Part shown: piece after piece, positions 14,717 through 56,015 of the stretch | How positions within the stretch are numbered: the first letter of the stretch is position 1 | Layout of the letters: every line of letters begins with the position of its first letter | DNA from: Polyangiaceae bacterium | Lineage (GTDB): Bacteria > Myxococcota_A > Polyangia > Polyangiales > Polyangiaceae | Length of the DNA stretch: 64,000 bases | NCBI GenBank assembly: GCA_015075635.1 | Contig: JABTUA010000001.1 | Location: forward strand, 2,542,001 to 2,606,000 | Direction of reading: 5' to 3' | Notes under the pieces: generated by a model | Told to the model about the DNA's origin: nothing | What the model saw: the letters and a program-made list of their open reading frames with translations, nothing else | Database searches by the model: none | Position numbers and translations under genes: made by a program

Positions 14717-16420
14717 CTAGATGAGGCGGCCCTGCCGGTCCCCATCGTCTAGCCCGGCCCAGGACACGGCCCTTTCAAGGCTGTAACACGGGTTCGAATC
14801 CCGTTGGGGACGCCATCCGTCAACTCCGCGCATTTTCGCAAGCACGTCGAAGGGCTTTCTGAAATCAAAACGCACGGTTGTCCCATCGAGGCGCGGGTTA
14901 CAAACCAGCCGTTCCAGAAAATCGCGCTGCTCCGCAGGCGAACGAGCTTCGAGCAACGATCTCGCACTCTTGGCGAGTTCCAAAACGCTCTCGGCCGTTT
15001 CGAGGTAGCTGGCGTCGATCTCGCCGTCCGCGTCACGGAGCTTCTCGAACCGATCCTGCTTGTCCGAGCGAAGGCGTGCGAGCTGCCGGTCGTAGGTGTC
15101 GCGGTCGATCTCGCCGCTGTCGAACCGATCGAAGAGCCGGTCTTCCCTCTCTTCGAGCGACCGGATCTCGGCACGGTAGACCTCCGCTGACTTCGCCTTC
15201 GCGGCCATCGCCGCTCTGTGCGTCTCGTTCAGCGCGCGCGCCACGGTCTCGGCAAACTCGGTCGTGACCTGGATGGCGTCCGCAGCGCTCACGAGCTGGT
15301 CGAGGATCTGCTGTTCGCGGACGTTCACCTGCGACTCGCCTCTGCCACGGTGCACGCGCCGGCCGTCCGCGCAGCGGTAGTAGGGATACACGACCCCATT
15401 CGGCTTGGACTTCGGCGCATACGTGATCTTGCAAGAGCACGCCGGCTCCGCGCATGTGAGCGAGAGCGGGCCCTGAGCGAAGAGCCCATCGTGCCGGAGC
15501 TTCCGGTACAGCGTGCGCTCCCCGAACGACGCCCTCAGGCGCTCCCACTCCTCGGCAGTGAAGATCGGCTCGTGCTTTGCTTCGTACCAATTGCCGCGCC
15601 AGACGAACTGGCTCCTGAAGCCGTCGTGCGGGTTCGGGATCGCAGCGTAGAAAGCGTTCTTGAGATGCGCGTCGATGATCGAGCAGTGGTACCTCGGGAT
15701 CAGGCGCGCCGGCACGAGCCCCTCTTCGAGACACATCTCCCGGATGCGGGTGAGGCTGAAGCCGCGAAGGTGCAGCTCCATCTCCCGGCGCAGGAGGCGG
15801 CGACCCTCGGGCGTGGGCCCCATCACGGTGCTGCCGCGCCGCTTGGGACGACCGTCCTCGTCCAGCACCGGCTGCTGCCAGTAGAACCACGGCGGCTTGC
15901 TCGGATACCAGCCGTTGCGACACCGCTGCTCCATCCCGTCGATCGTCTTTCGCCGCCGGAGCCGGTTGTCCTGCTTCGCCTGCGCGACGTTGATGTCGAA
16001 CATGAAGAACTCGGAGTCGTCGCTCTGCGAATGAAGCACGGTACGGCCGGCCGCGATGTGGAGCGTGATCTCGTCGTCGCGGATCATCTCCTCCAGCAGC
16101 TCTGCGTCGGTGAAGTTTCGCGTGATGCGATCCCAGAAGGAGAACACCAGGTGCTTGATGTTCTGCTTCCGAGCTTCGGCGATGGCCGCGTGGAACTCGG
16201 CCCTCAGCGCGGACTTCTTGGCGCTCTCCTGAAACGGCCTCGCCGCCACGACCTCCAAGCTGACATCCTGCGCGTAGTCAGTCGCCGCCTTCTCCTGCGC
16301 ATCGAGGGACACACCGTCCTTCTGCTTCTTGTCGCTGATGCGGCAGATGAGCATTGCGCGGCGGTTCTTGGTGTCCCACCAAGGCGGCTTCGACTCGTTG
16401 TGCCGGTGGCCCGTCATCAT
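14717..16420 (-). CDS. Large serine recombinase (site-specific integrase)
   Basis: This 567-residue protein has a resolvase N-terminal domain with CRISDKKQKDGVSLDAQ (catalytic S29) and the helix FSFWDRITRN (R98, R101). It continues with the recombinase DNA-binding domain, a zinc ribbon at about 320-355 (CAEPACSC with a late YYRC), and a Glu/Arg coiled coil (~400-460) typical of large serine integrases. Residues from W536 onward are encoded by the antisense of tRNA-Glu, so the present C-terminus exists only in the integrated form. The ATG lies in an ATGA overlap with the small gene upstream. It should catalyse integration and excision. Confidence 0.93.
   Translation of the reverse strand: MMTGHRHNESKPPWWDTKNRRAMLICRISDKKQKDGVSLDAQEKAATDYAQDVSLEVVAARPFQESAKKSALRAEFHAAIAEARKQNIKHLVFSFWDRITRNFTDAELLEEMIRDDEITLHIAAGRTVLHSQSDDSEFFMFDINVAQAKQDNRLRRRKTIDGMEQRCRNGWYPSKPPWFYWQQPVLDEDGRPKRRGSTVMGPTPEGRRLLRREMELHLRGFSLTRIREMCLEEGLVPARLIPRYHCSIIDAHLKNAFYAAIPNPHDGFRSQFVWRGNWYEAKHEPIFTAEEWERLRASFGERTLYRKLRHDGLFAQGPLSLTCAEPACSCKITYAPKSKPNGVVYPYYRCADGRRVHRGRGESQVNVREQQILDQLVSAADAIQVTTEFAETVARALNETHRAAMAAKAKSAEVYRAEIRSLEEREDRLFDRFDSGEIDRDTYDRQLARLRSDKQDRFEKLRDADGEIDASYLETAESVLELAKSARSLLEARSPAEQRDFLERLVCNPRLDGTTVRFDFRKPFDVLAKMRGVDGWRPQRDSNPCYSLERAVSWAGLDDGDRQGRLI
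14738..14815 (+). tRNA. tRNA-Glu (UUC), attachment site of the mobile element
   Basis: The cloverleaf can be read directly. The acceptor stem is GTCCCCA / TGGGGAC with encoded CCA. The anticodon stem is CGGCC / GGCTG around the loop CTTTCAA, giving anticodon TTC for Glu. The T stem is ACGGG / CCCGT around TTCGAAT. A serine recombinase gene abuts and overlaps it antisense, and sequence character changes immediately 3' of the CCA, so this is the likely left attachment site of the element. The tRNA sequence is intact, meaning integration restored the 3' end. Confidence 0.93.
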
Positions 16421-25679: not shown

Positions 25680-25892
25680 ATGCAGATAGACATGAGCGAA
25701 TTAAAACGCATCACGATTTGTCTGCCGCGTGATCTGGTCGAGGACGCCAAGGAGATCGCCAACGCTGCTCCTGGCATCTGCTACCAGACACTGCTTCGAG
25801 ATCTGCTCGTGCGTGCGTTCAGAGACTACGCGAGGCACGAATGCAGAAACTCAATCACGATGACGATAGATCAACACAGAAACGATGGCTGA
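25680..25892 (+). CDS. Ribbon-helix-helix DNA-binding protein
   Basis: A 70-residue protein with ELKRITICLPRDLVEDAKEIA, the strand-helix start of a CopG/Arc-type ribbon-helix-helix domain, then a second helix (TLLRDLLVRAFRDYARHE). The ATG at 25680 or 25692 starts it. Its 3' end overlaps the next gene by 52 bp. Placed between the iteron array and VapE, it is a plausible autoregulator or copy-control repressor of the replication module (inference). Confidence 0.7.
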   Translation: MQIDMSELKRITICLPRDLVEDAKEIANAAPGICYQTLLRDLLVRAFRDYARHECRNSITMTIDQHRNDG

Positions 25893-27388
25893 CCCCGCTC
25901 GCGCTCCAGCTCCTGGACGCCGAGAACCTCGACGCTGAAGTAAAGAAGCTCGTCGAGGAAAACCCCGAAGCCAACTACAAGCTCCAGGTGCAGGAGGTCT
26001 TCGTCGCGCGGGGCATGGAAGTGCTCGACGCCAATGAGAAGGCCGACGAGCTGCTCCGCCGCGTCTCGACTCCACCGCCCGCGGAAGCCGATTCCGCGCC
26101 GCCGCCCAAAGCCGAAGCGGCGAACGACAATTCCGCCGGTCTGGCACTGATCGATGGGCTCGATGCAGCAGCCAAGGAGCCGGCCAAAAAGAAGTCGCGC
26201 AAGCCGAAGGCCGCTACTCTGGCGACGCTCGAAAAGCTCCTGACCGACCGGACTTACGTCTACGACGGACTCTTTCGCTTGAACGAGATGACCGGCGAGA
26301 TCGAGCTGACCAAGCGACCGCCATGGCACAGCAACGGCAAGACGCTTGAGGAAGCTGACGTGTCCGAGTTCCGAGCGCGGGTCGAGAAGCAACAGCAGCT
26401 GATCGCGTCGTCGAACCTTGCCTGGGAAGCCATCGCCATGGTCGCGGCCCGCAAGGCGTACAACCCCCTGCGGGAGTACGTGCAGGGCCTGGAGTGGGAT
26501 GGCGTGAAGAGAATCGATACCTGGCTGATCGAGCATGCGGGGGCCGATGACACTCCGCTCGTCCGTGCCATCTCGGCGAAGTTCCTCATCGCCATGGTCG
26601 CGCGAGCCATCGTCCCTGGAGCGAAGGTCGATACTATGCTCGTCCTCCAAGGCGAACAAGGCGTGCTCAAGTCGTCGCTGCTGAGGGCGCTTGCCGGCGA
26701 CGACTGGTTCAGCGACGCCGACATCGACTTCCACAACAAGGACTCGTTCGAGCTGCTGCGCTACTGCTGGCTGGTCGAGATGGGCGAGCTGGCCGCGCTG
26801 AACCGCCGCGACGCCGAGACGGCCAAAGCATTCATCTCACGGAAGGAGGACATGTTCCGACTCTCCTACGGGCGAAAGAACCAACGCTTTCCGCGCCACT
26901 GCGTCTTCGCCGGCACGACCAACCACGACGAATTCTTGCGCGACCAGACCGGCAACCGTCGTTACTGGGTCGTGCCGGTCAAGCAGTGCGACCCAGATGG
27001 CGTGAGCAAAGTGCGCGACCAGTTCTTCGCCGAGGCGCGCGTCCGTTACGAACAAGGGGAAGCCTGGTATCTCCCGCCCGAGCTTGAGCGCGAGCTGACG
27101 AGGGCACAGGAGTCGGTCATGCGCGAGCCGATGTACGCGCCGCTCATCGCCGCCGAGATCGAGCGCCTCGGCATGTTCCGCACCGTTCAGCCCGTGCACG
27201 CGCTCATGGACAGCCTGAAGGTCCCGCACACGCCGCAGAACGAGCAACTGTTCACGGCGGCGCTTCGGCATCTCGGGTACAGGAGGAAGCACACGCGGAA
27301 GGGCAACATGTGGGAGCCGAGCGAGGAACTGCTCGCGAAGCACTCGCCCCTGAGCGCACCAGACCCCGAGACCGCCGAAGAGCGTTGA
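25841..27388 (+). CDS. VapE-type AAA+ helicase/primase-helper of satellite elements
   Basis: The 515-residue protein has an N-terminal low-complexity third and a VapE (virulence-associated E) AAA+ domain from about residue 210. The Walker A is LQGEQGVLKSSL (K277), Walker B is CWLVEMGEL (E313) and the arginine finger lies in QTGNRRYWVV (R373/R374). Conserved surrounding text (VQGLEWDGVKRIDTWL, AGTTNHDEFLRDQ) is characteristic. VapE proteins drive replication in phage satellites such as SaPIs and P4-like elements. GCGAGG before the ATG is the SD. Confidence 0.9.
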   Translation: MQKLNHDDDRSTQKRWLTPLALQLLDAENLDAEVKKLVEENPEANYKLQVQEVFVARGMEVLDANEKADELLRRVSTPPPAEADSAPPPKAEAANDNSAGLALIDGLDAAAKEPAKKKSRKPKAATLATLEKLLTDRTYVYDGLFRLNEMTGEIELTKRPPWHSNGKTLEEADVSEFRARVEKQQQLIASSNLAWEAIAMVAARKAYNPLREYVQGLEWDGVKRIDTWLIEHAGADDTPLVRAISAKFLIAMVARAIVPGAKVDTMLVLQGEQGVLKSSLLRALAGDDWFSDADIDFHNKDSFELLRYCWLVEMGELAALNRRDAETAKAFISRKEDMFRLSYGRKNQRFPRHCVFAGTTNHDEFLRDQTGNRRYWVVPVKQCDPDGVSKVRDQFFAEARVRYEQGEAWYLPPELERELTRAQESVMREPMYAPLIAAEIERLGMFRTVQPVHALMDSLKVPHTPQNEQLFTAALRHLGYRRKHTRKGNMWEPSEELLAKHSPLSAPDPETAEER

Positions 27389-27400
27389 CCGCCAGAGAGA

Positions 27401-27634
27401 GCGCGCGAAAAAGACAAACGATGTCGGGCGTGTCCCACTGTCACGGGTGTCACGCCTGTTTTCTCAGAGGCGCGCGAAAAAGAGAAAAGTGGCGCGGCCC
27501 AATCCCCTTTTTTCCTCTTCTTTCAAACAATCACTGAAAACTGCCGTTACAGGTGTGACGGCTCCGAATCCGGCGGAAAACATGCTGGATTGGCCGCACC
27601 ACTGCCCGTGACAGAGGCCGTGACAGGCGTGACA
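27401..27634. repeat. Second cluster of short repeats (TGTCACG / CGTGACA) downstream of VapE
   Basis: Exact 7-mers TGTCACG occur at 27439 and 27448, and CGTGACA at 27607, 27619 and 27628; a degenerate pair is at 27546-27561. A 17/18-bp direct repeat (GCGCGCGAAAAAGA) occurs at 27401 and 27470. Between them is a pyrimidine/A-rich segment (27500-27545). This resembles a second iteron set or a regulator binding region in front of the HSDR_N gene. The gap 27389-27656 contains no gene. Confidence 0.5.
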
Positions 27635-27656
27635 GCTTCGGTACCCTGCTCATGCC

Positions 27657-29717
27657 GTGCGCCGTCTGCGCTCGTACAACCACCGCGTCTTTCAGACCCC
27701 CGATGGGCCGCGCCTGATGGATGTGGCCCGCTCGCAGCTCGTCCGCAACCTGCCCGAGGAGTACGTCCGGCAAGATGTGCTTCGCTCGCTCATGTTGGAG
27801 TACGGCTACCCGCGACTGGCGCTGCTGTCCGAAGAGCCGGTTGCGCGCGGCACCAGCAACCGCCAGCGGGCCGACGTTCTCGTGGAGCTGCCCGCCGAGG
27901 TAAGGGACGTCCACGAGGTCATCGTTCGAGACGGGCTAACTGCCAACGATGAGCCAGACCCCTCCTACGCCAGCATCGTCGGCGAGCTGAATGCTCGGCT
28001 CGGCGATCAAGAGGCCGTCCGCTTCGTGGAAGTGCCGGAGGCCCTCGACGTGACGGTGAGCGGCAAGCCCGTCGTCTGCCGAGTATTGGGCTTCAAAGAG
28101 GAGGGGCAAGCTCTCGGCCTGTGGCTCCGTCTGGCCGAACCCATCGACGGGCTGCCTCCGGAGCTGTGCCTGCACGTCTTGGGCTACGGCATGACGCGCC
28201 AGGAGCGGGAGGTCGCTCGCTCCCTTGGACTTCCCGCCGCAGCGCCGAATGCCACCGTGAGCGAAGAATTCGACGCCGAATTTTCGGAACTCTTCTTGAT
28301 GGACGAGGGACTGAATATCTCTCCGGGAGGAAGCGTTGCCGAGACCAATGTTCGCGGGTGGGCCATCCTGCGCACCGATTGGCGACACTGGTACGGAGCG
28401 TTGTGCCTCATCGACACCAGTTCGCGCGCCTGGGAGCAGCTGTTGGGCGCGCGGGTGAACCAGCTGCGCCGAGTGCCGCTTCACGACGGCAGCGGACGCA
28501 TGGCACACCGAGACAACCTAGATGCTCTCCGCTCCGGGGAGCGAGTGTTCATCCTGCCGTGCGATGATGGTCTACCCGTTGAAGGCGTGGTTCAGGAGAT
28601 TACCGAGCATTCAGTACTCGTTGATCGCGGCGAGCAGGGCACGGTCGAAGCGACCCTCACGCTGCAAGCCAACCACCCATGGGTGATGGGGCGCGTCCCC
28701 ACCGCGGAAGAATCGGTTACCTCGACAGCAGTTCACCGGAGGGATGATCGCGAGCGGACGTTCATTGTGGTCGAGTGCAAGGCTCCGCACGTCTCCTTCT
28801 CCGAGGAGGTCAAGAACCAGGGACTTGGTTACGCAAGGACGCGAGGCGCAAAGTTTCTGGTGCTAACGAACGGTGATTGGCGTTCCGCCTTCTTTCTGGA
28901 CGGCCGAGAAGCAGTCGAGGTCGAGGACATACCGACCTACATTGAGGCCCTCTCTAATCGCCGCTACGAGGTCACGGCATTGAAGGATGAGCGGAACTAC
29001 GAACCGCTACCCACAGTCGCCGTCATGGATCCCGACTTCGTACGATTCCACGCACGGAACCGTACCGTGATCGGCGCGGACGTACCCGAGCACATCTGGC
29101 GGCCAATCCTTGTGCTCGACGACATCCTGCTCCGGAACGCTCCGCTCTTCCGCGAGCCGCAAGCAGGTTTCGGCGTCACTCTTGCCGAAGATCTCGGCCT
29201 CAAGTGGCACGAGCCAGGCGACGCGGGGGGCGGAACGTTCCCTGGCGAGTACCGCGATTTCCTCGTTCGTGATGCTAAAGGCCGCGAGGTTGTGTTCGGT
29301 CTTCGAGTCTCCAGTTCGCAGAAGACGGTTGGCCATCCGACATGGGGCAATCGCACTGGTTCCAGCATGCTGGTCTGCTGCCTATCGTTCGGCTCCGTCT
29401 ACCACCCCGTCATGGTGTATCGCCTCGATCGCTTCCTGGAGGTTCGCGGTGAACGCATGCACTTCCGGCACTCGGGCGTGGCCACCGTCGGCAAGGGGGC
29501 GGCCAAGGCTGACGAGCTGTTGGCGTTCGTCAGCCACCGGGAGCCCGAGCTGGTCAGCGCCGGCCGTATCGTTCTTGGTAGCCTGCCGCTTCGCTCCGAC
29601 GCTGCCTGGGACGAGATGAGCGACTGGGCCCTGCGCCTGGCCAGATACGTGGTCCTCCGGCATGCGTTCAAGGAGGGTGTTCGGAAGCAGCGTCGGAGTG
29701 GCTCGCGGCCTCGGTGA
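27657..29717 (+). CDS. HSDR_N-type nuclease-like protein with ~290-residue insertion
   Basis: GTG 27657 (no SD; TACCCT 9 nt upstream) starts a 686-residue protein. Residues 36-77 (YVRQDVLRSLMLEYGYPRLA, then RADVLVE with D73) are the start of a type I restriction HSDR_N domain. The expected second half (VVECKAPHV, E373-x-K375, Q388, TNG at 404-406) appears only after ~290 inserted residues. The PD-(D/E)XK core is therefore probably complete but split by an insert of unknown fold. The C-terminal ~270 residues are also unrecognised. No HsdM or HsdS is adjacent, so it may act alone or with the DUF2130 neighbour in a defence role. Confidence 0.75.
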   Translation: MRRLRSYNHRVFQTPDGPRLMDVARSQLVRNLPEEYVRQDVLRSLMLEYGYPRLALLSEEPVARGTSNRQRADVLVELPAEVRDVHEVIVRDGLTANDEPDPSYASIVGELNARLGDQEAVRFVEVPEALDVTVSGKPVVCRVLGFKEEGQALGLWLRLAEPIDGLPPELCLHVLGYGMTRQEREVARSLGLPAAAPNATVSEEFDAEFSELFLMDEGLNISPGGSVAETNVRGWAILRTDWRHWYGALCLIDTSSRAWEQLLGARVNQLRRVPLHDGSGRMAHRDNLDALRSGERVFILPCDDGLPVEGVVQEITEHSVLVDRGEQGTVEATLTLQANHPWVMGRVPTAEESVTSTAVHRRDDRERTFIVVECKAPHVSFSEEVKNQGLGYARTRGAKFLVLTNGDWRSAFFLDGREAVEVEDIPTYIEALSNRRYEVTALKDERNYEPLPTVAVMDPDFVRFHARNRTVIGADVPEHIWRPILVLDDILLRNAPLFREPQAGFGVTLAEDLGLKWHEPGDAGGGTFPGEYRDFLVRDAKGREVVFGLRVSSSQKTVGHPTWGNRTGSSMLVCCLSFGSVYHPVMVYRLDRFLEVRGERMHFRHSGVATVGKGAAKADELLAFVSHREPELVSAGRIVLGSLPLRSDAAWDEMSDWALRLARYVVLRHAFKEGVRKQRRSGSRPR

Positions 29718-29725
29718 CCCGGCGG

Positions 29726-30718
29726 CTACCCGGCCGCCGTCTCGTCCGCATCCTCGTCATCCTTCACCAGCGACAGCGGCACGCCCGACACGATCTGCGC
29801 GACGCGAGAGTCCACGGCCGCGTGACCCTGCTCGACCGCGCGGTACAGGTCGGACTGCGCAGCCCATGTACGGTCGTGTTGCTGCCTTTCCTTGCCCTGA
29901 AGACGAATGAGATCCGCGATGCTTTCGGCCACGGCCTTCATGCCCCGGCGGTATTCGTCGCTCTTGACGAATTGCAGGAGCTTGTCCGCCTTCCGCGAAC
30001 GCTCGGCGTGGGTGCCGGCCGTCGCTGCACCTCGAACGACGATCACCTGCCGAAGCGCGCGGACAACGCTGGCCACGATCGTTGGGTGCACCACGGCGAC
30101 GTCCTTCTCGAACGTTAGGTACTTCTTGCCGGCGGGGAAGGCGGTCGAGACGAGCACTGCTTGCGCCCCATGGTGAAGCGCCAGCGACTTGCGAGCCTGC
30201 TTCAAGTAGTCGGTTGACCACTTCGCGACGTTCTTGACCTCGTAGATGATCACGCCGCACGTCCTGCCTTGCTCGCGGACTTCGTGCCGGATGTCTGCGG
30301 AGCCGCGGCTCTTGCCGATGCGCTCGATGATGTCCGTAGGGAAGGCTTCCTGGAGCGCGCGTCGGATGTCGGCTTCGCCAATCTCCCCCTTCTCGTCCGC
30401 CGTCAGCCGCTCCAGCTTTCGGCGCAGCTCATCGTTCTGACGCATCAACTGGTCTTGCAGCCGATCTTGCCGGCGACGCTCCTCAGTTCTGGCCTTGGTC
30501 GCGGCGGCTTCCTCGACGCTCTTGAGCTTCGCCTCGTACTGCTTGCGTGCCTTTGCTTCCGCCGTCCGTTCAGCCCGCCGCAGCTCGGTTTCGAGCTGTC
30601 GCTGAAACTCGGCCTCGCGCTTTGCCGAGAGCTTCTCCAGGTTTTTCTCCGCGCGAGCCACGGCGGACGGATCGGGCAGCGGCTGCTCGCAAACCGGGCA
30701 CTTCCTGTTCTTCGTCAT
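29726..30718 (-). CDS. DUF2130 family protein (PD-(D/E)XK-like core)
   Basis: The 330-residue protein begins with a CPVCEQ half-zinc-ribbon, followed by a long charged coiled coil (residues ~20-110). After that comes the DUF2130 core: GEIGEADIRRALQEAFP, IGKSRGSADIRHEV, VIIYEVKNVAKW (E-x-K), LVSTAFP. The D...ExK arrangement resembles a PD-(D/E)XK nuclease, which is the proposed fold for this family. It is convergent with the HSDR_N-like gene, 8 bp apart. Defence association is inference. Confidence 0.8.
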   Translation of the reverse strand: MTKNRKCPVCEQPLPDPSAVARAEKNLEKLSAKREAEFQRQLETELRRAERTAEAKARKQYEAKLKSVEEAAATKARTEERRRQDRLQDQLMRQNDELRRKLERLTADEKGEIGEADIRRALQEAFPTDIIERIGKSRGSADIRHEVREQGRTCGVIIYEVKNVAKWSTDYLKQARKSLALHHGAQAVLVSTAFPAGKKYLTFEKDVAVVHPTIVASVVRALRQVIVVRGAATAGTHAERSRKADKLLQFVKSDEYRRGMKAVAESIADLIRLQGKERQQHDRTWAAQSDLYRAVEQGHAAVDSRVAQIVSGVPLSLVKDDEDADETAAG

Positions 30719-39231: not shown

Positions 39232-40788
39232 CTATCTCCGACCAGGCACACGCTTCTTGCGCGGAACCACTCGCTCTGCCGCCTTGACGATCGGGGCTGC
39301 CGGGAACGGAAACGCGGCCTGCGTCGGGCGCTTCGACTTCGCCAGCGGTGCGCGAGGGAACGTCACATTGACCTGCTCTGCCGGCGGATAGTCGATGCCC
39401 GTTCCCTCCAAGAGCTGCTCCACGGTGACGACCTGCAAGCGCGGGTAGCTCTTGTTCCAACCCGGCGACTGGTAGAAGCCTCCGCTGGCCGCTTCTCGTC
39501 GCATGGGCTGGGTCGGCTCTCGCAAGGTAATGAAAACGCCGAGCGCCGCTTGCTCGCGGTCGATCACACCCCGTAGGTCGCGCACGTCCGCGACCGAGGT
39601 GCCGCCGCTCTTCACCGAAAAGATGATCTGCTTCGTCCGCGCGTTTGGCCCAACCTCGTCGTGGAAGTAGAGCCGGCCGTCAACGCCGCGGTCTGCCCCT
39701 TTCTGTTCGACGACCGGCCGGGCCCCGACGAGCCCAAGCGCCCACCACTGGAATTGGTACGGGTTCAGCTCGGCCAGGGCCTCCGCGTCCGGCAGCGATA
39801 CAGGCTCGCCCACTGCTTCGCCGACATCGACGCCCAGAGAGTCTTTCATCCGGCGCTTGATCAGGTTGATCGCGAGGTGCGTGATGTCGATGCCGACCCA
39901 CTGTCGCCCAAGGCGGTGCGCGACGGCGACTGCTGTCCCGCAGCCGCAGAACGGGTCGAGCACGACATCGTCTGGGCTGCTGCTTGCAAGGATCACCCGT
40001 TCCAGCAGCTTCTCGGGTTTCTGTGTTGGGTAGCCGAGTCGCTCCTTGCCGCTTGGTGGGATGATGCCAACCTCCCAGACGTCGGAGAGCGGCGGGCCAA
40101 GCGACTCCTCTTCTTCCGTACTTGGCTTTCGATGCCCGCTCGAAAAGTCCGCCTTCTGCTTCTTCGTGCCGTACGTCTTGATCGTCGATTCGGCCAGGGG
40201 CTCGTAGCCGTAGAGCACGTGGAACGTTCGCTCCGGGGCCGCCGACTTGCTGTAGAAGAGCAGCACGTCGTGCATCTTCTGGAACTGCCGCGCCTTCGCC
40301 GGCCAGCGGCGGTAGCGCCAGATCACCTCGTTCCGAAAGTTCGCCGGCCGGAAGATCGCGTCCATCAGGACTTTCAGGTAGTGGCTCGCGACGGGATCAC
40401 AGTGCAGATAGATGCTCGCGCTTTCCTTCATCACGCGATGTAACTCGACCAAGCGCGGAGCCATCATGGCCAAGTACGCGAGCATGTCGGACTCGCCGAA
40501 CACGAGCCGAAAGGCTTGCAACGCCTCCGAGACCTTGCCGCCGCCCTCGACGAGTTCGTGATACGCGCGCGCGGCAGCCTCGTCCCATTCCCAGGTGTCC
40601 TTGAATGCCTTTACCTGCGCGGCTGACCGCGTCCCGTCGTGCTCGCGGAAGAGCACGTTGTAGTCCTTGGCCGAATTGAACGGCGGGTCGAGGTAGACGA
40701 GATCGACGCTTTCGTCAGCGAGGTAGCGCCGCAAGACGTCCAAGTTGTCCCCGTAGTAGAGCCTCCCCTTCGAGCCTTTCGCCACCAC
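39232..40788 (-). CDS. DNA methyltransferase fused to nuclease-like (Mrr-like) domain
   Basis: GTG 40788 starts a 518-residue protein of beta-class N4/N6 layout: catalytic motif IV DPPF at residue 34 precedes the SAM motif LDPFCGCGTAVAVA at 278-290. The target-recognition region lies between. The C-terminal domain (from ~340) has QFQWWALGLVGA, GADRGVDG, IIFSVKSGG and a GVFITLREPT strand, resembling restriction-type PD-(D/E)XK folds, but the expected ExK is SVK. Such fusions occur in stand-alone modification or in restriction-modification-like systems. Two short unknown genes follow it on the same strand. Confidence 0.85.
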   Translation of the reverse strand: MVAKGSKGRLYYGDNLDVLRRYLADESVDLVYLDPPFNSAKDYNVLFREHDGTRSAAQVKAFKDTWEWDEAAARAYHELVEGGGKVSEALQAFRLVFGESDMLAYLAMMAPRLVELHRVMKESASIYLHCDPVASHYLKVLMDAIFRPANFRNEVIWRYRRWPAKARQFQKMHDVLLFYSKSAAPERTFHVLYGYEPLAESTIKTYGTKKQKADFSSGHRKPSTEEEESLGPPLSDVWEVGIIPPSGKERLGYPTQKPEKLLERVILASSSPDDVVLDPFCGCGTAVAVAHRLGRQWVGIDITHLAINLIKRRMKDSLGVDVGEAVGEPVSLPDAEALAELNPYQFQWWALGLVGARPVVEQKGADRGVDGRLYFHDEVGPNARTKQIIFSVKSGGTSVADVRDLRGVIDREQAALGVFITLREPTQPMRREAASGGFYQSPGWNKSYPRLQVVTVEQLLEGTGIDYPPAEQVNVTFPRAPLAKSKRPTQAAFPFPAAPIVKAAERVVPRKKRVPGRR

Positions 40789-49603: not shown

Positions 49604-50464
49604 TCAGGAGCCCGACGTTGGGTCGGCTGGCGGGAGCAACGGCTTCAGTGGCTCTTCGAAGTCGAGTATCCGCTGGGCTTTGATCACGAACCCGAGGTTG
49701 CTGGGAATGCTGGTCTTGGAGATCGCGCGCTGCTGCGTCGGCACATCGACGACTTGAATCGTGCCGTCGGCCATGTACTGCGGCCCGGCGTAGAGAACAC
49801 CCAGCAGTTTGAACCGCGTGCCGATCACCGTACCCCCATCCTTCTTGCAGTACATGCCCTCGTTGAGCAAGAGGATCGGGGAGCCGCTTGAACCGGGAAA
49901 GCACGCGGCATCCACAACGAACTCACTGCGTCCGTTGTAGTCGAGTCTCGGGTGGGTCGCGCTGATACCCCTTCGGAAGATGGGCATGTTGTTCAGCGGA
50001 TCCCAGATCCCCGCCGGGTAGCCGACCATGATGATGTCCTCTACCGTCGCCAAGTCATCGAGATCGGCGAGGGTGGGGATGAGCGATCGATCAAGAGGAA
50101 TGATCCATATCTTCTTCCCCTTGGCTTCGGCTTCACGGTGAAGTGGGGCCGTCGGCATTATCGCCAGGTCAATTCCCTTGTCAGGGTGCCGAATCCACCG
50201 GGTCGCGAAGTCCGGCAACTCGACCGTGACGTGCTGGCCCGACGGGCCACCGGTACCGTCGTCCAAGTGCACTTGGAAGCGACCGACCTGCGCACCTTCG
50301 ACGACATGCCAGTTTGTCACGATCGCTGGAATGTGGGTGGAGCCCCTCTCCAGAAACCGGAAGAAGAACCCGGTGCCGGTTCCGCGGCCCCCATCCTTGT
50401 AGTCGCACTCGATCCGCACCGTGCTGTAGCTGAGCTTCTCGGTAATCGAAACCGGCAAGGCCAT
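49604..50464 (-). CDS. Trypsin-like serine protease (cytosolic type)
   Basis: A 286-residue protein with complete trypsin-fold catalytic triad: H53 (VTNWHVVEG), D99 (GIDLAIM) and S193 (FPGSSGSPIL). There is no signal peptide. Strand-like segments (GRGTGTGFFFRF, IIMVGYPAG) fit the chymotrypsin beta-barrel. Cytosolic trypsin-like domains often occur as effectors or sensors in prokaryotic immunity and conflict systems. It has no obvious operon partner. Confidence 0.85.
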   Translation of the reverse strand: MALPVSITEKLSYSTVRIECDYKDGGRGTGTGFFFRFLERGSTHIPAIVTNWHVVEGAQVGRFQVHLDDGTGGPSGQHVTVELPDFATRWIRHPDKGIDLAIMPTAPLHREAEAKGKKIWIIPLDRSLIPTLADLDDLATVEDIIMVGYPAGIWDPLNNMPIFRRGISATHPRLDYNGRSEFVVDAACFPGSSGSPILLLNEGMYCKKDGGTVIGTRFKLLGVLYAGPQYMADGTIQVVDVPTQQRAISKTSIPSNLGFVIKAQRILDFEEPLKPLLPPADPTSGS

Positions 50465-53888: not shown

Positions 53889-55040
53889 TCACCTCGCGTT
53901 CGCCGCTCGCCGCTGGTTCTTCGCCCACTTGCCGAACCTGGCGTGAAGCGGCTTGCCGATCTTGCCGTACCGGCCTTTACCCCTGATCGCGTTCTGCACA
54001 ACGGACTTGCTCACCTGGAACTTCTTGGCGAGGTTCTCGTACGTGTACTTGCCCGTGGAGTAGAGCTGGCGCGCCTCGTCCACGTTCTCCTCGGGCAATG
54101 ATGCCGAGATCTTGGACGCAGCAATCGGCGGCTCCACTTGGACACGATCGTACGGAGCGCACCCTCGGATTGCCCTGGAGATCAAGTTGATGCTGACGCC
54201 TCGCTCTTTGGCGAACGTCGTCAAGTCCTCGCCGTTTCGATGGCGGCGACGAAAGCCCGCAACTTCGTCATCGGTGAGCAGCCGAGGTGTGGGCCGCGTC
54301 GCTTTGATCCATCCGTTTTCTCGGCGCGGTAGTTGTCGCCCGACCTTGGCGTACGCCCCGAGCCCGCAGATTGCTTTCTCTGCGACGTAGGGAGTGACGT
54401 CAAACCTCTCGGCGAGCTGGGCGTACGTGTACTCGCTGGTCGCGTACAGTTGCCGCGCTTCCTCGACTTGCTCAACGGAGAGGTAGCACTGCTTGTCGTG
54501 GTGGTTCTCGGCCATCCTCGCCCGCGACTCCTTGGAGTGACGCCGGCCGTGGAAGGGGTTGCGCCGGCCCGTTCGCTTGGCGGCCTTCCCGCTAAGGAGC
54601 TTCCGAACGCGATCCGAGTGACGCTTTCCCCAGAAGGGGTTCTTGTTGCCAACGTACTTACCCTTTCGGCGCTCGCTCATTCGACGACGTACAGCAGGGC
54701 TCGCCTTCCAGCCGGGCACGCCATCACCGCCATCGGTCAGGTTGTACCCATGGTCTCGCTCGTTGCTCCGGTACTTCTTGATGTAGTCCTTCTCGGCCTG
54801 CATCCAAGCATCGACTTCGTTGTCGTCGAACGTGTGGATGATGTCGAAGGAGAAGTTGTCGCGGCCATGTTTTCGGATCGCGCGGTGGAAGTACGGCTGG
54901 AACCGCTTGTTGTCCTTCGGGCCTTTCTTCGCGGCCGCGAGGTGCTGATTCCACCTGTGCGTCGGCGGGTCGAACTTCGTCTTCCCGATGTAGCGTTTGC
55001 CGTTGATCTTGTTGGTTGCGGAGTAGATGTAGAGTGCCAT
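53889..55040 (-). CDS. GIY-YIG homing endonuclease with NUMOD3 and HTH repeats
   Basis: The ATG at 55040 gives 383 residues. The GIY-YIG core is LYIYSATNKINGKRYIGKT, with Arg and Glu residues further on (RWNQHL, AEKDYIKKY). Two or three NUMOD3-like DNA-binding repeats follow (GNKNPFWGKRHSDRVRKLLS, RRNPFHGRRHSKESRARM). The C-terminal half carries three helix-turn-helix units (LYATSEYTYAQLAERFDVT, FAKERGVSINLISRAIRG, LYSTGKYTYENLAKKFQVS). This is a free-standing homing-type nuclease. Confidence 0.9.
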   Translation of the reverse strand: MALYIYSATNKINGKRYIGKTKFDPPTHRWNQHLAAAKKGPKDNKRFQPYFHRAIRKHGRDNFSFDIIHTFDDNEVDAWMQAEKDYIKKYRSNERDHGYNLTDGGDGVPGWKASPAVRRRMSERRKGKYVGNKNPFWGKRHSDRVRKLLSGKAAKRTGRRNPFHGRRHSKESRARMAENHHDKQCYLSVEQVEEARQLYATSEYTYAQLAERFDVTPYVAEKAICGLGAYAKVGRQLPRRENGWIKATRPTPRLLTDDEVAGFRRRHRNGEDLTTFAKERGVSINLISRAIRGCAPYDRVQVEPPIAASKISASLPEENVDEARQLYSTGKYTYENLAKKFQVSKSVVQNAIRGKGRYGKIGKPLHARFGKWAKNQRRAANAR

Positions 55041-55112
55041 ACGGGCATGCAGGGAAATGCCCAGCATGGCCACCGCGGACTTTCGGCCTACAACGAGGGG
55101 TCTCAGGGAAGG

Positions 55113-56015
55113 TTACGGCCCGTTCACCATGACGCGCTCGATGAACCACGCCTCGACCTCTGCGAACTCCGACTTCGCCACCATCTCCGCCACCGACGCC
55201 GTCCACAAGTGGGAGTGGCGGGCGAAGTAGATGCCGATGGTCTTCAGCTCCGGCAGCTTCGCACCGGAGCGGCGAGCCGCGCGAGCGAGCAGCAGGTACC
55301 CAACGACCTGGCGGATGTCGGCCTTGTCGATGATGGCGTCCTGCTTGACCTTGATGTCGAGCAGCATGTCGCCGGTGATCACGTCAGCATCGGCTCCGCC
55401 CACTGCCTGCGAGAATTCGCCGAACGTCGGGTTCAGGCAAGTTCGTCGCTTCTTGAAGCTTGCCCAAGGCACGGCATCAAGCATGGTCACGATCTCTTCG
55501 AGGTCGCTGGCCTTTGGCTTCACGAAGAGCTTGTCGTGGCGGCCGGCTCGGTAGATAGCGTCCAGACGAGCGAGACGGAACGCGTGAGCCGCGAGCTTGA
55601 GCTTCGTCGGCGATCGAGGTGATGGGTTTCGGACGTACCTCTTGGTGAACGCCCGTGCATCGCGAATTGCCGCCTCGACTTTGCGAATCGTCGGGCCAAG
55701 CCTTCGAGTGCGCCTGTACGGAAGACCGGCCGCTCGAAGTATGCGAGCGAGCGTAGGCGAGACCCTTGCTCTGCGCTTCAGGTTTGCCAAGCCAGCCTCG
55801 GCGACCCACGACTTCTGCTGGACTCGGCCAATGCGGCGCTCCAGCTCGATCCGAAACGCGTAGTCAAAAGCGGTACCAATCGTGCGCCGAATACCACCGT
55901 CATCATTGCGTGGTTCGACGATGCGGACGACTCGCTGGTTACGCTGATAGTCGGGCAGTATGCGGTTCAGCTCCTGCTTCACGTCGGGAAGATTGACGAA
56001 GTCGAGCAGGCTCAT
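55113..56015 (-). CDS. PD-(D/E)XK-like protein, last gene of a four-gene operon
   Basis: The 300-residue protein has RRTIGTAFDYAFRIELERR and a nuclease-like core GADADVITGDMLLDIKVKQD (D211, D220-x-K222), then QVVGYLLLA (Q236, Y240). This D...DxK...Q..GY arrangement is typical of PD-(D/E)XK enzymes. It starts 5 bp after the DUF4238 gene. Candidate effector of the operon (inference). Confidence 0.75.
   Translation of the reverse strand: MSLLDFVNLPDVKQELNRILPDYQRNQRVVRIVEPRNDDGGIRRTIGTAFDYAFRIELERRIGRVQQKSWVAEAGLANLKRRARVSPTLARILRAAGLPYRRTRRLGPTIRKVEAAIRDARAFTKRYVRNPSPRSPTKLKLAAHAFRLARLDAIYRAGRHDKLFVKPKASDLEEIVTMLDAVPWASFKKRRTCLNPTFGEFSQAVGGADADVITGDMLLDIKVKQDAIIDKADIRQVVGYLLLARAARRSGAKLPELKTIGIYFARHSHLWTASVAEMVAKSEFAEVEAWFIERVMVNGP

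Follow-up and report, generated by a model that had tools for sequence, protein, structure and literature searches.

The gene at positions 27657-29717 of the window (the whole stretch of 64,000 nucleotides analysed here) encodes two separated pieces of a restriction-type nuclease domain. This raises the question whether the pieces still form one active site and, if they do, what the long stretch of residues between them is and what such a protein could do. The sequence-only reading had described a Type I restriction HSDR_N domain split by an insertion of ~290 residues and possibly acting as a stand-alone defence protein.

Gene and organization of the protein

The reading frame 27657-29717 has high GC3 and the codon bias of real genes, and the start of the 686-residue product is backed by the co-linear N-termini of its homologues (MRRLRSYNHRVFQT / MKRLKSYRHRTFQT). 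The sole Pfam domain of the product is HSDR_N_2 (PF13588, 62.3 bits at a cut-off of 25), matched in two stretches; the scan with Pfam and NCBIfam models gave no other domain, and so no SF2 helicase/translocase. On the genomic DNA the same model is matched by its positions 1-43 and 46-110, in the same frame and with ~0.9 kb between them. This two-piece pattern was clear only for the window protein and for a protein of genome G206 among ~60 placements in 339 genomes of the phylum. The parts of the gene are:

27657-29717, + strand: coding sequence of the split HSDR_N_2 nuclease, 686 amino acids, GTG start
27657-27893, + strand: N-terminal half of the nuclease core, residues 1-79 (HSDR_N_2 positions 1-43, invariant residues, model strand 71-79), with the PEExVRQ helix, E59 and the catalytic D73 (27873-27875)
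27894-28748, + strand: insert, residues 80-364, following the D73 strand and preceding the E373 strand, present in 4 carriers and in 0 of 23 insert-free relatives
28017-28226, + strand: first subdomain of the insert, residues about 121-190, β-rich, pLDDT about 90
28521-28706, + strand: predicted Tudor/SH3-like barrel, residues 289-350, from the VIA alignment of the AlphaFold2 model
28749-28952, + strand: C-terminal half of the nuclease core, residues 365-432 (HSDR_N_2 positions 46-110, invariant residues), with ECK containing E373 (28773-28775) and K375 (28779-28781), then QxxxY (Q388 and Y392)
28989-29705, + strand: conserved C-terminal domain, residues about 445-683, without a Pfam name, kept in 16 of 16 two-domain relatives

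Structure of the nuclease core

An alignment of 27 sequences, comprising the four insert carriers (at only about 37–40% identity) and 23 insert-free relatives, shows R25, P33-E35, R38, Q39, E59, R71, D73, E373, C374, K375, Q388 and Y392 to be invariant. D73, E373 and K375 are thereby found at the positions proposed for them earlier. The AlphaFold2 model calculated on this alignment has a mean pLDDT of 85.5 and a pTM of 0.80. When it is aligned by VIA, both separated pieces (residues 6-433) superpose jointly on single nuclease domains: those of BsaXI (8w2p, Z 10.9, 138 residues, 3.2 Å), the type I subunit HsdR 3h1t (Z 10.0), BpuSI (3s1s, Z 9.6), the solitary protein of Spirosoma linguale (3ijm, Z 7.9) and EcoR124I HsdR (Z 7.1). 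BsaXI and HsdR 3h1t are also matched independently by sequence-profile searches of the PDB. The first AlphaFold run, made with four sequences, was poor (pLDDT 53) and still gave BsaXI with Z 8.6. Foldseek comparison of the whole protein with the PDB and with viral structures yielded no match below E 1e-3, and the fold match of the core is that of the VIA alignment and the sequence profiles. The structure prediction which the sequence-only reading had put forward as its check thus gives one joint core from the residues of the two pieces, and we are highly confident that an intact split nuclease core is real. It is predicted to cleave DNA.

In the model the C-terminal half of the core contains a strand (residues 365-374) followed by a helix (residues 383-395). 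The limits of this strand and of strand 71-79, together with the known fold, place D73 and E373/K375 at the base of the catalytic β-hairpin, while the insert is predicted to leave from its tip. Such an attachment would allow the insert to be added without breaking the active site, because the catalytic residues are at the opposite end of the hairpin.

The insert

D73 and E373 are 299 residues apart in the window protein, and the corresponding gap is 287-299 in all four carriers. In the 23 insert-free relatives it is 14-22, below the 25-40 residues that had been taken as usual. The proposed insertion of ~290 residues is real; the shorter usual spacing leaves that conclusion unaffected and puts the net size at about 280. 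Three further genomes of the same order (L003 in G206, L016 in G431 and L017 in G403; the L003 gene is apparently the same as that of the public Sandaracinus MAG record L018) encode homologues that are full-length, free of stop codons and interrupted by the insert at the identical site. These homologues share 37–40% identity with the window protein overall and about 27–30% within the insert. In the tree, which was built on shared columns after an occupancy cut had taken the insert out, a branch supported at 100/99 sets the four carriers apart, so that one gain of the insert is the simplest account of this clade. The insert is a discrete extra module, neither an assembly artefact nor a product of gene decay.

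The known carriers are four only, all in one order. Genome contigs yielded no relative when the window protein was the only query; with A2 they yielded the copy in Sandaracinus together with numerous short proteins of the HSDR_N_2 type. The insert alone had no accepted match among plasmids and phages, and the window's insert had none in Pfam; in a sample of 377 genomes of the phylum it was found nowhere beyond G000 and G206. Several candidates were discarded: a viral match to the insert (L156) was rejected as chance, an origin of the insert as a duplicated nuclease was dropped after hhalign of the insert against the family profile gave no relation, and an apparent N-terminal half in G115 (L118) turned out to be a 141-residue frame without trace of the insert.

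Residues 289-350 of the model align best with the Tudor domain of PHF19 (6wau) with Z 7.5 and 1.6 Å over 54 residues (of 57 in 6wau), many further Tudor domains matching below it, though according to the tool's own note a VIA Z near 7-8 may reflect merely a common arrangement. Weak sequence matches of the insert to LSm4 and to the Pcl Tudor domain (E of 0.1-1.5) agree with this fold type. The model assigns these residues an SH3-like barrel fold; the claim concerns the type of fold and not homology. The preceding subdomain (residues about 121-190) is possibly a second SH3-like barrel, a weak assignment since its matches to SH3/Tudor barrels (Z about 3.5-4.6) appeared only with the first, poorer model.

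No conserved aromatic cage was found in residues 286-352, which hold 1-2 aromatics in three carriers and 5 in the fourth. Reading of methyl-lysine or methyl-arginine by the barrel is therefore unlikely, and contact with nucleic acid or protein is more likely. Tudor domains in BREX-type defence helicases have been proposed as modules for nucleic-acid or protein contacts (PMC12839542), and bacterial chromo-like domains have been described in secreted proteins (PMC5906684). BrxHII and BREX-related systems resemble the window protein in carrying a Tudor/SH3-like barrel on a defence-type enzyme, but theirs is the N-terminal domain of a helicase, whereas here the barrel is nested within the nuclease core (PMC12839542).

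The C-terminal domain and the two-domain family

The further residues behind the core, previously noted as ~270 unrecognised ones and here put at ~250, indeed have no Pfam name, but they make up a domain that every two-domain relative retains. Its motifs (ED.G, GNAGGG, YR, H605 and Y664..R668) are all present in the window protein, and E511, G514, G521, A523, G525, G526, Y532, R533, H605, G641, Y664 and R668 are invariant or nearly so. The AlphaFold2 model has pLDDT of 81-97 across most of residues 480-680. Neither Pfam nor NCBIfam nor PADLOC gave a model for this domain. The VIA lists are dominated by the core and the barrel and barely cover residues beyond about 440, so the C-terminal fold is not to be called new on their basis.

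Insert-free two-domain relatives of ~400 residues consist of the core and the same C-terminal domain, and members of the family occur in prophages, on a plasmid and in chromosomes of several phyla. Proteins of this size annotated as “type I restriction enzyme HsdR N-terminal domain-containing protein” (Hymenobacter WP_269562310.1; viral contigs L011, L012 and L101-L105) are likewise solitary on mobile elements but lack the 280-residue insert. Stand-alone PF13588 proteins of ~150 residues (Bacteroidota; Spirosoma linguale 3ijm) share the core with its motifs PEExVRQ, D, ExK and QxxxY, but their D-to-E gap is 14 residues and they have neither the insert nor the C-terminal domain. The similar nuclease domains of BsaXI (type IIB) and BpuSI (type IIG) are fused to methyltransferase and specificity parts, both absent from the window protein. 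As compared with the type I HsdR subunits (3h1t and EcoR124I), which have a similar core, the window protein is without the helicase/translocase and without HsdM/HsdS. The earlier label “Type I restriction” is the name of a Pfam domain only, and for these reasons the protein does not belong to a type I system.

HSDR_N_2 nucleases are already known, their solitary forms being annotated by name only. PADLOC has no family-specific model and gives only partial MTase_I/MTase_II matches via the nuclease domain; literature searches returned no paper naming PF13588 and none on this family among solitary HsdR-type defence nucleases. As far as the tools used show, the HSDR_N_2 family has not been described with a domain nested within its catalytic hairpin, an arrangement found here in one order only. 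What comes to light is an unnamed family of solitary cargo proteins with an HSDR_N_2 core and a conserved C-terminal domain, covered by no Pfam C-terminal model and no PADLOC model.

Genomic surroundings

The gene lies in an integrative island of ~55 kb, which begins at 14.7 kb and ends near 69.5 kb on the coordinate scale of the window and stands out because GC3 falls there from about 0.9 to 0.7-0.8. The following features of the island and its boundary are relevant here:

14717-16420, − strand: large serine integrase (phrog_95), left island boundary, its 3' end covering tRNA-Glu
14738-14815: tRNA-Glu, overlapped by the 3' end of the integrase gene
25841-27388, + strand: VapE-like gene, adjacent upstream of the nuclease gene and on the same strand
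29726-30718, − strand: DUF2130 protein, directly downstream and convergent
39232-40788, − strand: single protein that joins an N4/N6 DNA methyltransferase to an Mrr-type/NA-iREase1 domain at its C-terminus
49604-50464, − strand: trypsin-like protein, PADLOC phage-defence candidate PDC-S45 (4e-112)
53889-55073, − strand: GIY-YIG/NUMOD3 homing-endonuclease-like gene
55113-56015, − strand: weaker match to PDC-S61

No convincing duplicated att site at tRNA-Glu was found within about 104 kb, which is no surprise with a serine integrase. Defence-like genes of the island include the PDC-S45 gene and the methyltransferase gene with the Mrr-like domain (possibly a fused restriction-modification enzyme).

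As had been stated from the sequence, no modification or specificity subunit is adjacent: the nearest recognised methyltransferase is the one listed above, 9.5 kb off, and no HsdM or HsdS was found in the neighbouring island genes scanned, nor recognised in the scanned subset of neighbours of the other carriers and the insert-free relatives. In other carriers the gene has a DUF932 protein or a protein kinase beside it, and the carriers share no conserved neighbours, so the nuclease probably acts alone, in line with the stand-alone gene suggested before. Insert-free homologues are the commoner form, but they are single cargo genes, and none was recognised at an HsdM/HsdS locus in the scanned subset of neighbours. 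They lie amid tail genes (L103), adjoining serine recombinases (L101 and L012), beside GmrSD, a type IV restriction system (L009), next to an IS5 transposase on a Hymenobacter plasmid, and in a viral contig (L011, 6297-10489) with the terminase large subunit gene on one side and the portal gene on the other. The terminase/portal interval is an unusual place for cargo. The two outcomes that the sequence-only reading had named as refuting it, unrelated domains without a joint core and insert-free homologues far commoner at loci with HsdM/HsdS, did not appear.

Possible function

The explanation we favour, to which as a whole and with defence included we give about even chances, is that of a solitary PD-(D/E)XK DNA endonuclease carried as island cargo, which most likely attacks incoming phage or plasmid DNA and contains a nested recognition or regulatory module. 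In the model the two halves of the core fold together and keep E59, D73, E373, K375, Q388 and Y392, with the insert hanging from the hairpin tip, and the core would cleave DNA. The C-terminal domain may supply the function common to the family, that is, binding of a trigger or substrate, or oligomerisation. The nested insert would be a clade-specific module that binds DNA or protein and either sets the choice of target or turns on the nuclease. Defence or competition between elements would be the biological role. Occurrence as solitary cargo supports a protein that works autonomously. Its place in prophages and an island, a restriction gene as neighbour and the other defence-like genes of the island make defence or inter-element competition the probable role.

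The nuclease might instead serve the DNA metabolism of the mobile element itself (replication, recombination or resolution) together with the VapE-like helicase/primase, whose gene lies directly upstream on the same strand with a cluster of repeats in between. Replication or maintenance of the element is a role that prophage or island cargo could have. The first model, made from four sequences, does align to archaeal Holliday-junction resolvases (Z 6.5-6.8, a fold in common), but restriction nucleases are matched more strongly, no other carrier has the neighbours of the window gene, and the insert-free relatives lie in structural-gene regions of prophages rather than in replication modules; we consider this role unlikely. 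Somewhat less probable still is a modification-dependent (type IV-like) restriction enzyme whose nested barrel reads a mark on phage DNA. The GmrSD family is known to restrict modified DNA, and one relative adjoins a GmrSD homologue. The nesting of the barrel in a nuclease also fits such an enzyme, as does the proposal of Tudor-like domains as sensors in BREX-related helicase-nucleases (PMC12839542). Against it stand the lack of a conserved aromatic cage (with the few aromatics of three of the four carriers), the existence of insert-free relatives, which means that the insert is not essential to the family, and the Pfam scans of the protein and of the insert, in which no SRA/EVE/YTH-type reader was recognised.

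That the protein is the R component of a restriction-modification pair, with its methyltransferase elsewhere in the island (39232-40788) or in the genome, seems improbable to us. BsaXI-like enzymes and the PADLOC MTase_I models do show HSDR_N_2 in fusion with methyltransferases, and the N4/N6 methyltransferase is within the same island, but the latter is distant, on the other strand and equipped with an Mrr-like domain of its own; moreover, the subset of neighbours scanned around the other carriers and the insert-free relatives included no recognised methyltransferase. Least credible, and in our opinion very improbable, is a degenerate or non-catalytic remnant broken by the insertion. A large insertion in a catalytic core would look disruptive at first sight, but the frame is open, all active-site residues are kept, the model shows a joint core, and four diverged species retain the same insert.

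The usual way for restriction-type nucleases to acquire specificity is the addition of domains at their ends. In the solitary endonuclease proposed here the catalytic hairpin houses an entire module, which four species differing over 60% of the protein have retained, so the core tolerates and presumably uses it. A bolder form of the proposal, which we regard as doubtful, is a single-protein immune nuclease in which the module nested in the hairpin is a sensor with SH3/Tudor-like barrels, and binding of a phage protein or DNA feature would directly open or close the active site. If this were true, an allosteric switch would be built into the core and not appended to it. As a single-gene family, these proteins are easy to assay for phage defence.

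Repeats upstream of the nuclease gene

The region between the VapE-like gene and the nuclease start contains a cluster of GTGACA/TGTCAC repeats (27438-27635) with three copies of CGTGACAG and with inverted arms of 17 nt at 27438-27454 and 27619-27635 (88%), as well as an 18-nt AAAAAGA-type direct repeat at 27401-27487. It is possible that the repeats at 27401-27635 are a replication origin or an operator.
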